Shown piece after piece: positions 18,086 to 50,445 of a stretch of DNA of 64,000 nucleotides (positions are counted from its first letter, which is position 1; every line of letters starts with the position of its first letter). Origin of the DNA: Akkermansia muciniphila (GTDB lineage: Bacteria; Verrucomicrobiota; Verrucomicrobiia; Verrucomicrobiales; DEV007); assembly GCA_945883495.1 (NCBI GenBank), contig CAMCXS010000023.1, positions 1 through 64,000 on the forward strand. Direction: 5' to 3'. The notes under the pieces are model-generated. The model was not told the origin of the DNA, did no database searches, and was given only the letters and a program-made list of their open reading frames with translations. Position numbers and translations under genes: made by a program.

Positions 18086-19540
18086 ATGAACCGGATCACC
18101 GAATCTCCCAACGCCAGCGCGATCCAAGATTACCTGAATCGCCGAGTCTTCCTGCGTCGCGGCGCCTCCGCCCTCAGCGCCACCGCGCTCGCCTCGCTCG
18201 CGCAAGCCGAGGAAGCGCGCCCCGGGTTGCCCGGCTTCCCGAACTTTCCGGCCAAGGCCAAGCGGATTATTTACCTGTTCCAGTCCGGCGCCCCCTCGCA
18301 AATGGATCTCTTCGATCCCAAGCCGCAAATGGAACAGCAACGCGGCAAGGATCTCCCCGAATCCATCCGGAAAGGCCAACGCCTTACCACGATGACGTCC
18401 GGGCAGAAGAGCTTTCCGGTCGCTCCCAGTATCTTCAAGTTCGCCCAACATGGCCAAAGCGGCGCCTGGCTCAGCGAACTGATGCCGAATATCGCCAAGG
18501 TCGCGGATGAGCTGTGCTTCATCCGCACCATGCATACCGAGGCGATCAATCACGATCCGGCCATCACCTTCTGCCAAACCGGTCACCAACTCGCCGGCCG
18601 TCCCAGCATCGGTTCCTGGCTCAGCTATGGCCTCGGCACGCAGAATAAGAATTTGCCGGCTTATGTCGTGCTCACCTCGTTCGGCTCTGGTCGTCCCGAT
18701 GACCAACCGCTCTACGATCGCCTCTGGTCCGCTGGGTTCATCCCCGCGCAACACCAAGGGGTGAAATTCCGCAATTCCGGCGATCCCGTCCTCTATCTCT
18801 CCGATCCAGCCGGCATGGATCGCCAGATGCGCCGTGGCATGCTCGATGAATTGGCCGCCCTGAATCGCAAAGATCACGAGACCTATGCCGATCCCGAGAT
18901 CGATGCCCGGATCGCCCAATATGAAATGGCCTTCCGCATGCAAAGCAGCGTGCCGGACCTCATCGATATCTCCAAAGAACCGGCCCATATCCTCGAGATG
19001 TATGGCCCGGACGTGAAGCGCACCGGCAGCTATGCAGCGAACTGTCTTTTGGCCCGCCGCTTGGCGGAACGCGATGTCCGTTGCATCCAACTCTTCCACA
19101 TGGGTTGGGATCACCACGGCGGCCTTCCCAATGCCATCAAAGGCCAGTGCCGCGACACCGATCAAGCCACCGCCGCCCTGATCACGGACCTCAAACAACG
19201 CGGTCTCCTGGAAGACACCCTCATCGTTTGGGGCGGAGAATTCGGCCGCACGATTTATTCCCAAGGCACGCTCACGGAAACCAACTACGGCCGGGATCAC
19301 CACCCGCGCTGCTTCACCGTTTTCCTGGCCGGTGCCGGAGTGAAGAAAGGCTTCACTTTAGGCGAGACCGACGATTACTGTTACAACGTCATCAACGATC
19401 CCGTCCACGTCCACGACCTCAACGCCACCATCCTTCATCTCCTCGGCGTCGATCACAAAAGGCTGACCTACCGCTTCCAAGGCCGCGATTACCGGCTGAC
19501 GGATATTCATGGCGAGCTGGTCAAAAAGATCTTGGCGTAA
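18086..19540 (+). CDS. DUF1501 family exported protein
   Basis: ATG 18086 starts five bases after the upstream stop. The 484-residue protein has a strong Tat signal ([19 protein letters not shown]). Landmarks include [19 protein letters not shown] near the N-terminus, the conserved [13 protein letters not shown] segment, HMGWDHHGG, and [13 protein letters not shown] followed by GRDHHPRCF, which together hold probable metal ligands. It differs clearly from the other DUF1501 protein in this window and is the longer form usually paired with PSCyt1-DUF1549-DUF1553 proteins. Confidence 0.92.
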
Positions 19541-19555
19541 TCCACAACAGACCGG

Positions 19556-19702
19556 TTCGGAAAACATTCCGGCCCGTTCGGAGCCGTTCCCGGTCGAATC
19601 TGGAGCACTTCCCGGCGGATCTGGAACACATCCCACACACCAAATGGACCTGCCCGGCCGCTCCAAACGCTCGCCCGGTCCGTCTGGACGTTGGAAGGAA
19701 GA
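19556..19702. repeat. Array of degenerate 21-bp tandem repeats (orphan)
   Basis: Seven consecutive units of exactly 21 bp start at 19556, 19577, 19598, 19619, 19640, 19661 and 19682. An eighth, weaker unit overlaps the preceding stop codon. Typical units begin ATCTGGA or TTCGGA, have a variable middle, and contain CCCGG near their ends (for example CTTCCCGGCGG in unit 3). The array fills the gap between two convergent genes. The pattern matches the array at 48992-49264, including the conserved GGA and CCCGGC blocks, but no gene of its own is attached. Confidence 0.8.
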
Positions 19703-19730
19703 ACCGCCCCCCCCAAGAAGGGGCGTTGAC

Positions 19731-20300
19731 TCACCGCAAATCGTAACGGTAGCGGACCTCCACCAATCCTTTGCCCCGAATCGAACCTCCTTTGATGGCC
19801 CCATCCAGGAAGCAGCCGCGCGATTCGTAAAACTTCCGGGCCGTTGAATTGCTATCGAGCACCCACACCGTAATCGCGCTCAGGCCGCGTTCCTTGAAAA
19901 CCTTCATCGCCTCCCGCCAAAGTCCGGAACCAAGGCCACGCCCTTGATGCCCCGGCCGCAGATAAATGGCATACACCTCCCCGGTCGACTCAGGCTCCGC
20001 GTCCTCATCCCGGGACGGCCCCAAACTGACGAACCCCTGGGTCACCCCGCTCTCCTCCGCGACCAGGATGCAGTGATTGGCATCGCCAAACAACTCGCGC
20101 CACGCCGCCTCCCGCACCGGCACGGAAAGCGATGCCAGATACTCCGCTGGGATTTGCCCCACATACGTATGCCGCCAAGCCTCCACCTGAGTCTCCGCGA
20201 TCGACCAGCTGTCTTCAATCCTCGCGGCGCGGATCAGGGTGCCTCGTTCACGGCGGGAACGCACTCCGGAGGTCCGCTCGCATGAAATCTCGTTCCCCAT
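19731..20300 (-). CDS. GNAT family N-acetyltransferase
   Basis: GNAT enzymes move an acetyl group from acetyl-CoA to an amine. The 189-residue protein has the core fold. VYAIYLRPGHQGRGLGSGL carries the acetyl-CoA pyrophosphate loop (Q-x-x-G-x-G/A variant HQGRGLG). WVLDSNSTARKFYESRGC is the C-terminal motif B, with the usual Asn-Ala/Ser-Arg-Phe-Tyr pattern. The first 20 residues are extra to the domain, so the true start could be slightly downstream. The substrate cannot be predicted. Confidence 0.88.
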   Translation of the reverse strand: MGNEISCERTSGVRSRRERGTLIRAARIEDSWSIAETQVEAWRHTYVGQIPAEYLASLSVPVREAAWRELFGDANHCILVAEESGVTQGFVSLGPSRDEDAEPESTGEVYAIYLRPGHQGRGLGSGLWREAMKVFKERGLSAITVWVLDSNSTARKFYESRGCFLDGAIKGGSIRGKGLVEVRYRYDLR

Positions 20301-44517: not shown

Positions 44518-46503
44518 TCAGCCCGCGAATCCGGGTGCAGGAGGAGGCGGAGTTTCTGGTGACCCGGGCTCGACTGGTCCGACTGGTCCGACTGGTCCGA
44601 CTGGTCCGACTGGTCCGACTGGTCCGACTGGTCCGACTGGTCCGACTGGTCCGACTGGTCCGACTGGTCCGACTGGTCCGACGGGTCCGACGGGTCCGAC
44701 GGGTCCGACTGACGTCACTTCCACCTCAGAGGTGCTCTCAACCACCGCAGAGGTGCTCTCAACCGCCTCAGAGGTGCTCACAACCGGGTCGGGCGTAGCC
44801 GCCACGGGCTCACTCAGCGGCTCAGGCACCGCCACTACCGGCTCAGCTTCAGGCTCAGGCGCGGACACCACGGACTCGGGCTTCGGCTCCGGCACCTCTA
44901 CTACCGGCTCAGGTTCAGGCTCGGGCGCGGACACCACGGACTCGGGCTTCGGCTCCGGCTCCGCCACTACCGGCTCAGGTTCAGGCTCGGGCGCGGACAC
45001 CACGGACTCGGGCTTCGGCTCCGGCACCTCTACTACCGGCTCAGCTTCAGGCTCGGGCGTGGACACCACGGACTCGGGCTTCGGCTCCGGCACCGCCACT
45101 ACCGGCTCAGCTTCAGGCTCCGGCGTGGACACCACGGACTCGGGCTTCGGCTCCTCAGTGGCAGGCGTTTCCACCAGCGGGAGTTCCGGTGCGGCCCAAG
45201 CGGGATCCGCCACCGGGATCATGGAGTTCAGGTTCTGCAACCGGTTGCGGACAATGCTGCCATCCCCAGCGATCGCGTTCTTGTATCCAGCTTCCTTCAG
45301 TTCCTCCAAAATGGGTTGCACGTCCCGGTAAGCCTGCGCTGCCTTGGCCGCGATGCTTCCGAAGTCCGGCGTGATCCGGTACAGCTTCGGAATAAACCAA
45401 CCATGCACCACTGCCGCTAGCAAATGCATCTGGGCACGCTCATCCCCTGCCGTGGACGGATGCCGGAACAGATCCGCATAAAACTCGCCCCAGGCGAACG
45501 GCCGTCCCACCGGCTTGTTCTTGATCCCGGATAGATAGAGGAGGAACTCCGAGACGTTCTGCTCCGGGCTCAACCGGGAATGATCCAAGGGCGCATCATC
45601 GCCGTTCCAATAGGCCAGATTTGCGGGAAGTGGGAGCAGCCCAATCTCTTTCTCACTATGCACGTGCTTCGGATCCACATGGGCGCCTTTCAGCCCCATC
45701 TCCGCATTCATAATGCAGAACGCATCCACCAAGCTCAGCGGCACAAAGAACTCACCGTGCGCGCGCTCCTCCTGCACTTTATTGACGTTCTCCACCGCCA
45801 TCGCCAGCAAGGCATGATTGCGCGAGAAAAACTCTTCCTTGGTCAGATCCTTGGTATCCAGCTTCAAGGTGCCAAAAACATTCCGCGGATTGACCGCCGT
45901 GGAGCCCGGGGAAAGTTCTTTGTCGATCCCCGCATACGCCATCAGTCCTTCGAGATACATCTTGGCGAACCCGGTGATCCCCACCCGCTGCGCCGCGACC
46001 AGATCGACCGAGTTCGAGCAGAAGAACGGCTCCACCAACACGGCAGTGGCCCGAGCCGAGTGCAAACTCCGGCCCCCGCGGTCATCGGGTCCCAACACCT
46101 TGAGCCCACGGTCTGGCCGCCCCAGCGCCTTGACCATTGCCTTTTGCAGGTGCCCGGCCAGGGCCAGCGACTTCGCGGAACCGCTCGACAACGTTTCAGT
46201 CCCGGTGGCGCTGGGCGAAGCCGCGTTGAAGTGCAGCTCGATGCTGGCATCCGCGCCCTTCGCATCAACTTGGTCGTAGGCGGCATCGATCTCCGCACTG
46301 TAGCTGGAATGGAAGGTGCGGTTGACTTTGAACAGCTCCAGCTTCTGCCCGCCCCGGAGCAGATTGAACAAGTTGTCCGTGGACAGCCGCAGCATCTCGT
46401 CGGCGATCAGGTTATTGAAATCAAATTCCGACATGCCAATCGGGGTCGGCGCATAAGCCCCCGGAGCCTTGGCGTTGTGTCCGACAACGATTGCGATTTT
46501 CAT
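44518..46503 (-). CDS. N-acetylmuramoyl-L-alanine amidase-like protein with 22-residue repeats and collagen-like tail
   Basis: ATG 46503 starts the domain directly ([16 protein letters not shown]). Residues about 1-190 match Amidase_3, which cleaves the amide between MurNAc and the peptide stem: a zinc-ligand-like [13 protein letters not shown] (His-x-Asn), and [11 protein letters not shown] with the likely catalytic Glu. Residues 190-455 form a helical domain of unknown role. Five 22-residue Pro/Glu/Val repeats follow ([18 protein letters not shown] type), and then about 15 GPV triplets. There is no signal peptide, which is odd for an amidase. The last part may be a stalk or entropic spacer. 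Confidence 0.75.
44572..44706. repeat. 9-bp tandem repeat encoding GPV triplets
   Basis: Fifteen units of GACTGGTCC (the last three GACGGGTCC) run without interruption. In the minus-strand amidase frame each unit is Gly-Pro-Val. The near-perfect identity suggests recent slippage expansion, so copy number may vary between strains. Confidence 0.95.
44822..45151. repeat. Five 66-bp tandem repeats encoding Pro/Glu/Val-rich units
   Basis: The minus-strand amidase frame carries five consecutive 22-residue units of the KPESVVS-PEPE-EPVV kind, differing at a few positions (Thr/Ala, Ala/Pro, Ala/Glu). The edges are approximate. These units lie between the helical domain and the GPV tract. Confidence 0.9.
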
Positions 46504-46666
46504 GGAGCCATCGGTAAATGCGAATTGGTAGACTGGCAACAGAGTCGCGCCCAGATGCACGCAATTGTCACAGACCGCCGCCAGTCCCGTAAGCGATCGT
46601 TGCGCCGCTGGCAGTTGCGTCTAACAGTCTTCAGGATTATCGAAACCACATCCATCCTACGCACTC

Positions 46667-47254
46667 ATGAAAGCTTCTCCCCGTTTCCGAGCGATGCCCC
46701 TAAACCTCGCCCTGGCCGCGATTTGGATTGCCGGATCGTTTGGCTTGGCGTCCTTGGCCAAGGCGGACCTCGACGCCGCCACGCCCAACGCCATCGTCAG
46801 GTTGATCGCCAAGCACGGCGCCAACTTCACTGAGACTTTGGAGAGCGTTCCAGAGCTGCAATCCTATTTGGCCAAGTCCCCCTCCCCGGAAAAAGCGCTC
46901 AACCAATTCCTCGCGAAGGAATCCGCCGCGGAACAAGCCAAGTGGATCACCCGCTTTTCCGACACGCTCGATATCCGGACCATGCTGGGACGCGAATCCG
47001 CCAAGGTGCCGAATGGCCTCTATGAAGTGGCATCGCTCATCCCCCCCCTGGACAAGACCGCCATCGCCGCCCTGCGGGAAGCCGGGATGCCGATGAACTC
47101 CAAAGACGCCGCCGAAGTGGCCTCCAACATGAGTTCCGCCCAAGCCTCCCACCTCCAAAGCAAGCTCGCCCTGAAAATCGCTGAATTGAGCCCGTCAGAG
47201 AAACAGCGGCTCATCGCCAAGTTCAAAGAAACCGCCAAGGCCCGCCGCCGCTAG
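46667..47254 (+). CDS. Hypothetical exported protein
   Basis: The 195-residue protein begins with a probable signal peptide (LNLALAAIWIAGSFGLASLAKA, about residues 12-33, cut after AKA). The mature part is mainly helical and hydrophilic, rich in Ala, Lys and Ser, and ends in a basic KAKARRR-like tail. No known domain is visible. The TAG stop is at the same time the first three bases of a 59-bp REP-like unit. Confidence 0.6.
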   Translation: MKASPRFRAMPLNLALAAIWIAGSFGLASLAKADLDAATPNAIVRLIAKHGANFTETLESVPELQSYLAKSPSPEKALNQFLAKESAAEQAKWITRFSDTLDIRTMLGRESAKVPNGLYEVASLIPPLDKTAIAALREAGMPMNSKDAAEVASNMSSAQASHLQSKLALKIAELSPSEKQRLIAKFKETAKARRR

Positions 47255-47541
47255 CCCGGACTTTAGTCCGGGAATGGCGGACTCAAGTCCGCACCACAGA
47301 TCAGGTAACGTAGCCCGGACTTTAGTCCGGGATTGGCGGACTCAAGTCCGCACCACATATCAAATAACGTAGCCCGGACTTTAGTCCGGGAATGGCGGAC
47401 TGAAGTCCGCACCACAGATCAGGTAACGTAGCCCGGGCTTTAGTCCGGGATTGGCGGACTCAAGTCGGCACCACAGATCAGGTAACGTAGCCCGGACTTT
47501 AGTCCGGGATTGGCGGACTGAAGTCTGGGCTACCTTGGCAC
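47252..47541. repeat. REP-like array, four full 59-bp units plus a partial fifth
   Basis: Units begin at 47252, 47311, 47370, 47429 and 47488, exactly 59 bp apart. Each has two hairpins, CCCGGACTTTAGTCCGGG and GCGGACT-CAA-AGTCCGC-like, followed by an ACCACAGATCAGGTAACG linker. The fifth unit is truncated and closes with GTCTGGGCTACC, which pairs with the opening GTAGCCCGGAC. The array lies between convergent genes and supplies the stop codons of both. Hairpins of this kind could terminate transcription from both sides and are targets of the adjacent RAYT enzyme. Confidence 0.92.
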
Positions 47542-48164
47542 AAATACTCCCAGGGCCGCAGCCGACCTTTCACCGGATTGTCCACGATATATCGCCGGAA
47601 ATGGTCGAGCTGTTCCGCGCTCCGGACGATGTGATCAAACGACTCCTCCTGCCACAGCGTCCCGCTCCGCCCAAGCCGCCGGTTGATGAACCGGGAGGAA
47701 GCCCCTTTCCAGCGTTGCACGATCCGGCTCAGGTCCTGATTCACCGGGGTGACCAAGGCATGCAGATGATTCGGCATCACCACCCAGGCATCGAGCCAGT
47801 ACTCGTCCGGATGCCCTTTGACGAGCTGATCTTTCACCAGTTGGGCGATGCCCAGTTGGCGCAGGACACACTCTCCCTCTCCGGCGTCCAGCCAGTCGTG
47901 CCATTTCTTGGTGAAGGTCCGTTGAAACTCGCGTTGCAACGGTTCCGGCAAGGTCGGGAGATCCCTGGCATCCTTCAACCCGTGGGCGCCGAGCCAGGCG
48001 TCGCGTTCTTCCTTCCACTGCTCAATCCGGCTCCGGGGCATCGAATCCTCCAATCTTGCGGTGACGAAATAGGTGACGCCTTCTTGACGCCAATGGGGAA
48101 GCTTCTTCCGGTATTTGACAACTTCACCCTCGGGGTCGAATGGCTGGAATTCCATGCTGTTCAA
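47499..48164 (-). CDS. REP-associated tyrosine transposase (RAYT, Y1/IS200-like)
   Basis: RAYTs are single-strand HUH nucleases related to IS200/IS605 TnpA that cut REP hairpins. The 221-residue protein contains GVTYFVTARLEDSMPRS (first strand), the HUH-type WVVMPNHLHALVTP, and the catalytic tyrosine helix in DHFRRYIVDNPVKGRL, preceded by SFDHIVRSAEQ. REP-like repeats flank it: the array at its 3' end and a single copy 39 bases upstream. Its last dozen codons and its TAA stop lie inside the fifth repeat unit. The start may be TTG 48164 or ATG 48155. Confidence 0.9.
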   Translation of the reverse strand: MNSMEFQPFDPEGEVVKYRKKLPHWRQEGVTYFVTARLEDSMPRSRIEQWKEERDAWLGAHGLKDARDLPTLPEPLQREFQRTFTKKWHDWLDAGEGECVLRQLGIAQLVKDQLVKGHPDEYWLDAWVVMPNHLHALVTPVNQDLSRIVQRWKGASSRFINRRLGRSGTLWQEESFDHIVRSAEQLDHFRRYIVDNPVKGRLRPWEYLCQGSPDFSPPIPD

Positions 48165-48273: not shown

Positions 48274-48981
48274 TTATTGGCTCGGTTGCCCAGCCCCCGC
48301 CGACTTCTTAGTCCGCCGCCGTCCCGCATCGACGACACTCCGCGCGGCAAAGTAGCCGTCGATGAACACATCGTCCCGGAACTGCCCCACCAGGCCGTCC
48401 ATTTTGCGGAAGATGGCTTCCACCGCGTTGAACCGGTCCCGCAAAGCCGCCGTCAAGGCCCGGCGTTCTCCGATCGCCACCCGCGGCGCGCCCAAGGCGC
48501 CCTCGAACTCGTTCGCCTCCCGCTCCGTTTCGTTGACCGTCTCCGCCGAGATCCCACAGTCCTCCGCGTCTTCCCCATGATCCGCCAAGAGCTTACGGGC
48601 GATTCCGATCGTCTCCCGCGCGGTGCTCAAGAGGATGGCATCCCGCATCCGGCGCCAATCCGTTTGGCTGAAGTCCACCTTGGCAGCGTCCGTCTCATTC
48701 CCCAACTCCCGGCAGCACACCGCCACGGCTTGGCCGAGCAGATACGCCGCATCTTCGAGCTCCTCTTCCTCACGGGCTTTATCGGCCGCCACCCCGCTGA
48801 TCTGCGACGCCTGTGCCTTACAAAAATCCGCCAGGACGGCCACTGAGTTCTTGGCCTCCAACACTCGTTTGCCGAAGCGCAACGGAGTTTTGTCCTTCCA
48901 GATCCTCTCGGATTCCGGTTCGTGAAGAAACGTGAGCGTCGCGCGGAAGGCGTCGAGCCGGTTGGTGTAAGCGTCTTTCAT
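48274..48981 (-). CDS. Helical hypothetical protein downstream of a 21-bp repeat array
   Basis: The 235-residue protein (ATG 48981) is soluble, acidic and predicted nearly all-helical, in the manner of a four- or five-helix bundle. Segments include LDAFRATLTFLHEPESERIW, AVLADFCKAQASQISGVAAD, a C-terminal RFNAVEAIFRKMDGLVGQF, and a final DGYFAARSVVDAGRRR. From memory, similar helical proteins with an internal duplication occur in Bacteroidota and Verrucomicrobiota and have no assigned function. Its start codon lies 10 bases from an array of 21-bp repeats that, in transcript order, would form its leader. No Shine-Dalgarno sequence is seen. Confidence 0.7.
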   Translation of the reverse strand: MKDAYTNRLDAFRATLTFLHEPESERIWKDKTPLRFGKRVLEAKNSVAVLADFCKAQASQISGVAADKAREEEELEDAAYLLGQAVAVCCRELGNETDAAKVDFSQTDWRRMRDAILLSTARETIGIARKLLADHGEDAEDCGISAETVNETEREANEFEGALGAPRVAIGERRALTAALRDRFNAVEAIFRKMDGLVGQFRDDVFIDGYFAARSVVDAGRRRTKKSAGAGQPSQ

Positions 48982-48991
48982 GTGAGGGTGG

Positions 48992-49264
48992 TTGTTCTTG
49001 GAAAAAGGCCGATTTCCCGCACCGCTCGCCCGGCTGCGAAGACTTTCCGGGCGATTGCTGGCACGTCCCGGTGGATTGCGGAGACCTCCCGGCCAATTGC
49101 GGAAGCACCCCGGCCGATGGTGGCAACGTCCCCGCCGGTTGTTGGCACGTCCCACGCCATTGCGGAAACGTCCCAGCCAATTGCGAACCGCGCCCGGTCA
49201 CCAACGCGAACGGACCGGCCGATTGTTTGCGTCGACCGGCCGATTGCGAAATCGGAGTGAGGAA
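48992..49264. repeat. Array of degenerate 21-bp tandem repeats upstream of the helical protein gene
   Basis: About 12 consecutive units, each exactly 21 bp, start at 48992 and repeat every 21 bases to 49243. A thirteenth degenerate unit ends at 49264. Units typically begin TTGCGGA, vary in the middle, and end in CCCGGCCGA or CCCAGCCAA. There are no unique spacers between them, so this is not CRISPR. Because 21 is a multiple of three, several frames on both strands remain open and show 7-residue periodicity. The same repeat type occurs at 19556-19702. Confidence 0.88.
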
Positions 49265-49538: not shown

Positions 49539-50021
49539 TCACTCTTCCAAGGTCCAGCCCTGCATGACCGCAACCTCGCGAACGAATGTCTCGCAAACCG
49601 CCCCCAGGTTTGACGCCACCTTGCCAACGATCGTGGCCAGTTCACTCATCCGGTCCTCCCGGAGCTTCACATCGTAAGCATGGTGGACGAGATGGCGAAA
49701 GCGGCGCAACTCATCCAATTCACTTCTCAGGTCCGCTCCAAACAGAGCCGGGCGCACCCCTGGAACGTGGAGAGTCATGCGCCGGAGGAGAGCTTCGTGC
49801 CAGCCGCCGTCCTTCGGCAAATTGTTCTCGAAACTTCGAGCCACTCTCAACCCCATCTGCTCGATGATGTTGTAGGCACGGGCCAACTCGAATGCTGTCG
49901 CTTGCAGCTTGCCGTGGGTGCCTTGCTCCAGGTGCGCGGCCGCCTCCGAGGCCGTTTCTCCGAAAATGCGGCAGTCCTCGCGCATTTCTTCACGGAGGGC
50001 GATCAATCCTAAACGGTCCAC
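49539..50021 (-). CDS. HepT-like HEPN toxin
   Basis: HEPN-domain HepT toxins are RNases held in check by MntA nucleotidyltransferases that AMPylate a tyrosine. The GTG start at 50021 is preceded by a strong AAGGAG at the right distance and gives 160 residues. The frame upstream to 50129 is rejected. The all-helical protein carries RHLVHHAY, an R-x4-H-x-Y motif: Arg and His are the HEPN catalytic pair and the Tyr is the modification site. It overlaps the mntA-like gene by 13 bases, so the two are coupled. Confidence 0.85.
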   Translation of the reverse strand: MDRLGLIALREEMREDCRIFGETASEAAAHLEQGTHGKLQATAFELARAYNIIEQMGLRVARSFENNLPKDGGWHEALLRRMTLHVPGVRPALFGADLRSELDELRRFRHLVHHAYDVKLREDRMSELATIVGKVASNLGAVCETFVREVAVMQGWTLEE

Positions 50022-50362
50022 GGTGCTCCTTGGCGTCGGATCTTCTCTCTCAACAAAGGCCGGACGCTGGCCAGATTCAGCAGGTCCACCGGCCGGCCGA
50101 GCGCTTCTTCCAGGGCGACGGCCAGACACGTCAACTCGCGCTCCTCAAGGACCTGATCCGGGTTCGACTCCCAATCCAAAGCCAAATCGACATCGGAATG
50201 CTCGTCAAACTGGCCAGGGACCAGGACCGACCCAAACACGATGACTCGGTATCCTTTGGGGAGAATCTTCTTCAGGGTTTCTTCCAGAACGTGGAGCGCG
50301 AGCAGGCGTTGCGACTCCCGAAGCCGGAGCCGTTCTTCATGGGTCTCTTGAAGGGCCGTCAT
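50009..50362 (-). CDS. MntA-like nucleotidyltransferase antitoxin
   Basis: The minimal nucleotidyltransferase has the signature GSVLVPGQFDEHSDVDLALD (G-S-x(n)-D-x-D), with the two aspartates that bind metal. It is expected to add AMP to the tyrosine of HepT. ATG 50362 follows GGGAGG and gives 117 residues. A start at 50404 is open but has no ribosome-binding site. It precedes the HepT gene, as is common for the type VII MntA/HepT system. Confidence 0.86.
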   Translation of the reverse strand: MTALQETHEERLRLRESQRLLALHVLEETLKKILPKGYRVIVFGSVLVPGQFDEHSDVDLALDWESNPDQVLEERELTCLAVALEEALGRPVDLLNLASVRPLLREKIRRQGAPWTV

Positions 50363-50445
50363 GCCTCCCGTCAGCGTAACCGCCGTCCGGCTCAGGACAA
50401 GCACAATTCAAGTCGACGCCCCGCGCGCGCCCCGCCCGTCGAGGT

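Follow-up and report, generated by a model that had tools for sequence, protein, structure and literature searches.

Bacterial minisatellites, or VNTRs, are tandem arrays of 10- to 100-bp units in variable copy number, usually with one locus per sequence and with no period in common. Iteron- and centromere-type arrays are composed of phased repeats of about two helical turns that adjoin the gene of their binding protein, a plasmid initiator or a partition protein, and REP/RAYT elements are intergenic, dispersed hairpins. Non-coding satellite families have rarely been reported from bacteria. The available portions of Subirana and Messeguer (2019; PMC6749651) describe dispersed non-coding families of long repeats only in Leptospira interrogans and Methanocella conradii, together with a 14-bp family in Chloroflexus aurantiacus, the non-coding families having lengths such as 46, 37, 69 or 14; in these portions no step common to several families appears, and a word search returns no mention of Verrucomicrobia. 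Among the results listed by a limited open-access search, no paper deals with such arrays in this bacterial group.

The element studied here, located at 19.5 kb in a 64-kb stretch of DNA (the window), is an old, diverged copy of a dispersed non-coding satellite family, family A, whose unit is 21 bp long and close to GTCCCGGYCRATTYGGAANNY. Family A shares its tandem units with minisatellites, but several loci carry the same sequence and the step is common to families. Its period near two helical turns fits iteron and partition arrays, whereas no initiator or partition gene is adjacent (DUF1501 and GNAT genes at 19.5 kb, the hp gene at a second array at 49 kb), the copies are dispersed in the chromosome, and binding by a cognate protein is putative here. 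It is intergenic and dispersed like REP/RAYT elements, but its units are not hairpins. Like the satellites in the portions of PMC6749651 referred to above, family A forms non-coding tandem arrays that belong to families, are scattered in one genome and are largely species-specific; unlike them, unrelated families here keep one 21-bp step, one family crosses genera, and one of its copies is linked to a gene.

The 19.5-kb array and its copies in the genome

Over positions 19556-19702, the identity of the sequence with itself at lag 21 is 0.468, compared to 0.261 (sd 0.039) in 2000 dinucleotide shuffles; this value was attained by 0/2000 shuffles at lag 21 and by 2/2000 at any lag between 5 and 60, which rules out chance as the origin of the period. 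The preliminary description had staked its reading on a 21-bp autocorrelation above that of shuffled sequence, and this excess is present. TRF independently reports a period of 21 at 19580-19634 (score 68). Manual division of the array into units places their starts at 19552, 19568, 19589, 19611, 19632, 19653 and 19674, with lengths of 16, 21, 22, 21, 21, 21 and 21 bp, so that the seven units of 21 bp counted earlier were slightly generous: six are full, one of them of 22 bp, and one is a 16-bp partial. The array nearly fills the gap between the two convergent genes, as had been described, with the exception of 11 bp past the DUF1501 stop and ~36 bp before the GNAT stop, where a terminator-like hairpin is found (Table 1). 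It is the most worn among the arrays measured, its units averaging an identity of 0.438 and one of them being 22 bp long, a wear that suits decay as well as use.

Table 1. Features of the window in order of position
Feature	Coordinates	Strand	Remark
DUF1501 gene, 5' of the 19.5-kb array	18086..19540	+	Pfam 8.8e-159
Orphan family A array	19552..19694	+	16-bp partial unit and 6 units of 21, 22, 21, 21, 21, 21 bp
3' block, three units	19632..19694	+	unit order shared by the genome's four full family A arrays
Terminator-like hairpin of the GNAT gene, adjoining the 19.5-kb array	19705..19725	-	consensus match only
GNAT acetyltransferase gene, convergent	19731..20300	-	Pfam 6.6e-18
Three 21-bp repeats in coding tail	44721..44785	-	unit resembles the C8/C39 intergenic unit by eye
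hp, orphan all-helical protein	48274..48981	-	no Pfam, NCBIfam or PHROG match
Second family A array	49019..49260	+	~11 units, each exactly 21 bp long; immediately 5' of the hp gene

A location at the 3' ends of two genes would suit an RNA element or a transcription terminator between convergent genes, and arrays are indeed somewhat frequent in such regions (5/15 array-bearing regions against 37/259 of regions). However, the RNA of the 19.5-kb array folds no better than shuffles on either strand (z -0.08 and -0.24), Rfam over the window matches only a tRNA, away from the array, the terminator-like hairpin is separate and lies outside the repeats, and 10/15 array-bearing regions are not convergent. 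We consider this explanation very unlikely. Neither a transposase nor a gene remnant was found at the locus, and the earlier suggestion of a remnant whose gene was lost finds no support there. The statement that no gene for a helical protein stands beside the array is confirmed, the sole significant tblastn match to hp in the window being hp itself, at 49 kb.

The genome that carries the window (G000) comprises 6.46 Mb in 206 contigs. BLAST with the 19.5-kb array retrieved C48:43823-44078 (E 9e-16), and the C48 array used as query retrieved an array at C65:6309-6441. With the one at 49 kb, family A has at least four full arrays on three contigs and at least two partial ones (C22 and C1), these counts being lower bounds. 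Hand and MAFFT alignments of the four full arrays reveal a 3' block of three units (Table 1), whose first unit, third from the array's end, has CACCAA where CGATT is usual, in all four. The preliminary description was right to see in the 19.5-kb array an orphan related to the 49-kb one, but the "different core" that was said to separate them gives way to homology, since both contain this ordered block. A model of the 3' block scores the four full arrays at E 1.8e-22 to 1.3e-19, a match by construction, and yields the further partial copy on C22 (E 2.1e-5); a model of the unit yields the half copy on C1. The copy at C22:20717-20767 contains an inverted repeat, CTGCCCGG...CCGGGCAG, and the one at C1:76105-76162 passes into a (TTGGAGTC)n microsatellite. 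Pattern matches and low-scoring profile matches in coding-like sequence were discarded after reading that sequence.

Over the last four units, the 19.5-kb and C48 arrays agree at 15.25/21 bp when units are matched by position and at 9.4/21 off position. The corresponding values are 11.25/21 and 8.3/21 for 49 kb versus 19.5 kb, and only 11.0/21 against 9.8/21 for 49 kb versus C48. As corresponding units match best, the array appears to have formed first, then to have been copied to several places, and then to have diverged. Tandem units above chance, at several unlinked loci and outside coding sequence, are what defines a satellite family, and we are highly confident that the 19.5-kb element belongs to family A and is non-coding.

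A comparison of the same locus in relatives, as proposed at the outset, gave a mixed picture. The DUF1501 orthologues of two genus mates, G001 (93% identical) and G002 (89%), are followed by no array, and in G001 an apparent gene on the other strand comes immediately after; in G014, which belongs to another genus of the same family, a worn array of different sequence, with a 22-bp step, comes after the orthologue (82%). At E 1e-15, neither genus mate yields a match to the GNAT gene. The 19.5-kb copy appears to be specific to its own lineage at the DUF1501-GNAT place, and family A was not convincingly found elsewhere in either same-genus genome. A first profile, R1, returned nothing convincing in 113 other genomes, nor in 386 others of the phylum at 1e-4, but these negatives are weak evidence, because a search with hp and a refined profile, R3, did find family A in G014 and in a further genome, G030 (see below). 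A pattern scan with the 3' block gave 76 stretches in unrelated bacteria, which we rejected: their lag-21 self-match is at most 0.409 within ~180 bp at all 76, the sequence having been inspected for the 12 highest only.

A 21-bp step shared by unrelated arrays

From the two arrays of the window, the preliminary description had inferred a genome-wide class and had proposed a scan for 21-bp segments. A lag scan and TRF were run on the window and 40 stretches, 864 kb of G000 in total, with TRF scores of at least 60 and intergenic status taken from a home-made gene caller. The class is borne out and is larger than supposed, with many unrelated arrays sharing the step. Arrays of unrelated sequence with a 21-bp step are present on C7, C8 (two), C10, C12, C39 and C48, and further arrays have periods of 41-43 bp or multiples. 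By eye, they group into families: the two C8 arrays with C39, C10 with C12, C11 with C18 (42 bp) and, on the doubled step, two 41-bp loci and two 43-bp loci. The GGA...CCCGG layout, put forward as the hallmark of the class, does not extend to it, other arrays having the 21-bp period without that motif. These families lie among ordinary genes and have no common partner gene.

In the whole sample, 22/30 intergenic arrays have a period of 20-22 or 41-43 bp. The proportion is 16/22 in 36 unselected stretches (the sample minus the window and four stretches picked because of matches), and 11/16 remain once arrays lying no more than 700 nt from the start of a stretch are left out, because assemblies break at repeats. 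Six other genomes provide 2/16, and G014 17/23, eleven of which are at 22 bp; Fisher p-values against the six genomes are 3e-4 (16/22), 3e-3 (11/16) and 2e-4 (G014). The five strongest self-match lags of intergenic DNA in G000 are 42, 21, 84, 126 and 63, and in ten near-perfect arrays (seven from G000, three from G014) 119/121 steps between units measure 21 bp, the other two 20. Overall, these data indicate that family A is one among several sequence-unrelated intergenic families with a 21-bp step, or one of 41-43 bp (about twice 21), and that the class is mostly built on a 21-base step, two helical turns, which is unusual for bacteria.

Three side observations concern individual arrays. L168:9247-9591 and L286:9922-10055 form one family of 43-bp arrays whose unit looks like a dimer of 21 + 22 bp, as expected for higher-order repeats. 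G014 has a dispersed 22-bp intergenic family, approximately GGGTTCGATCGGAGAGGAGACA, in many places (L328, L333, L325, L326, L327 and others), which resembles family A by eye. Finally, the 21-bp array of C39 (L289:1-918) lies ~230 bp upstream of the gene for a 158-aa protein with no Pfam match above cut-off, possibly a second array-protein pair (n=1).

The 21-bp step is divisible by 3, there are several open frames, and one gene of the window (44518-46560) indeed has repeats of 21 bp in its coding sequence, so that the unit could be read as the 7-residue repeat of a lost or unannotated protein. Against such a coding relic, the period-3 component expected of codon positions is absent from the conservation of family A in four array sets (p 0.77-0.96), 22-bp arrays dominate G014 and 41- and 43-bp arrays exist, lengths that would break the frame, and called genes contain 4 arrays of the class (three of 21 bp, one of 42 bp), the other 22 being situated outside them. 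A coding origin is, in our view, highly improbable. In the same gene, the C-terminal part encodes tandem repeats of 9, 21 and 66 bp.

The window also contains a Y1 (IS200-like, RAYT-type) transposase gene (47499-48164, minus strand; Pfam Y1_Tnp 5.9e-9) next to a hairpin array with a 59-bp period (47252-47525), a pairing that could suggest a mobile element array of the REP/RAYT type. Nevertheless, the 59-bp array is unrelated to family A in sequence and period, family A units form no stable hairpin and lack the hairpin-forming palindrome of REP/RAYT, no transposase lies at 19.5 kb, and visual inspection of the neighbouring genes of ten arrays revealed none, which leaves this origin extremely improbable. 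A palindromic operator was also rejected as a feature of the class: 7/40 units reach p<0.05 and the combined p of 0.008 is driven by those few, covariation in support of a palindrome in family A units being weak.

Family A and the hp gene in another genus

The hp protein, encoded next to the 49-kb array, has an all-helix AlphaFold model (single sequence) of poor quality, with a mean pLDDT of 55.5; it has no relative in the PDB better than E 0.29, and searches of viral contigs and of plasmids returned no match within the limits applied. Just past the array on the other side, adjacent HepT-like and nucleotidyltransferase genes (49539-50404) are likely a HEPN/MNT toxin-antitoxin pair. At E 1e-8, hp is found in 4/95 genomes, its own included (G000, G014, G030 and, weakly, G081), and within G000 at three places, one partial and one weak.

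Family A is also present in another genus of the same family, with one copy upstream of an hp homologue. On contig C25 of G030, an array of 15 consecutive units of exactly 21 bp (consensus GTCCCGaTcAATTTGGAaACT) lies directly upstream of this homologue, in the same orientation as at 49 kb, and the two loci have in common the array edge GCACCGCTC-CCCGGC. From the hp start codon to the array edge, they align with a score of 15.8 against -0.9 (sd 3.0) in shuffles; note that this score comes mostly from the edge itself, and that 48/1000 shuffles equal it once the edge is removed. Out of 73 sources, the G030 array is the top match (E 6.4e-4 and 9.9e-4) of R2, a unit model whose training sequences all came from G000.

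The refined model R3, applied to 40 genomes, matches family A in G030 (C302, C86) and G014 (C106, C61, C66), with weaker single profile matches in G024 (2.1e-4) and in G003, G061 and G001 (0.008-0.009). The hp gene and family A coincide in G000, G030 and G014, the latter two being of one genus; because the training set of R3 came from G000 and G030, and hp was what had led to G030, G014 is the sole independent co-occurrence and we claim no significance for it. Adjacency of hp and array is seen at two loci (49 kb and G030 C25), and no array lies upstream of the hp genes at G014 C112 and G030 C449.

Candidate explanations for the two-turn step

The register of three old family A arrays is exact. 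No unit is off register in the C48 array (11 units, 65 differences from consensus), the 49-kb array (11 units, 65 differences) or the G030 array (15 units, 86 differences), although differences within an array are non-independent if units were amplified after diverging, in which case the scarcity of indels may be overstated. Conservation along the unit has a 10.5-bp component in the G030 array (p 0.006), in C48 (p 0.012) and in the 19.5-kb and C65 arrays pooled (p 0.003), which does not stand out clearly in the 49-kb array (p 0.10) or in all 49 units pooled (p 0.067). In three of four array sets, conservation mostly amounts to two blocks one helical turn apart.

We give about an even chance to the reading that makes the 19.5-kb element an orphan member of a non-coding satellite family whose step is fixed at two helical turns, the array probably being phased and protein-binding and hp being its candidate partner. 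Family A copies would have spread through recombination or copying and afterwards diverged in place, the step being kept at two helical turns because a protein would read or pack the units on one face of the helix. As its gene has an upstream array in both genera, hp is the candidate partner of family A; the 49-kb array would be the hp gene's own site, and the 19.5-kb copy either a relic in decay or a putative orphan site for binding in trans. Action in trans, which the preliminary description had raised, is compatible with the data. Taken separately, we hold only tentatively, somewhat short of evens, that a putative binding protein keeps the 21-bp phase, and it is rather doubtful that hp would be this protein. 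Binding is favored by the register kept despite divergence, by the two blocks one turn apart and by the array-gene arrangement found across genera; hp genes without an array, families without a common partner and the lack of a consistent palindrome argue against it.

The main rival is that these are neutral or selfish minisatellites, unbound, which grow through slippage or unequal crossing-over and disperse through recombination, and whose step stems from their manufacture, either as two turns of DNA between paired breaks or by amplification from pre-existing arrays. Several sequence-unrelated families with an identical step, near-perfect young arrays beside worn old ones, doubled 41- to 43-bp units that look like higher-order repeats, ordinary genes as neighbors and the failure to find family A convincingly in two same-genus genomes all speak for it. 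It accounts less readily for the exact 21-bp register of old arrays despite 65-86 differences, for conservation in two blocks spaced by one turn, as seen in three of the four array sets, and for the one array-gene arrangement preserved between genera. We regard it as a serious possibility, though clearly below an even chance.

The unrelated families among ordinary genes favor a two-turn ruler in the mechanism that builds the arrays; for family A itself, we lean slightly towards a protein that would read or pack the units. In a further, unlikely proposal, this bacterial family would have a satellite system with a sequence-independent two-turn ruler, in which array-binding machinery would build unrelated families and hold them at 21 bp. 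The partner of family A would be hp, which would target both the array upstream of its gene and dispersed orphan arrays, the 19.5-kb one among them, the system serving to pack or segregate the chromosome much like a simple centromere-like satellite.

With a common two-turn step, a family that crosses genera and a link to a gene, the difference between protein-bound and passive satellites becomes directly testable in these bacteria. The link between hp and the satellite, if true, would give a role to an unclassified protein family.
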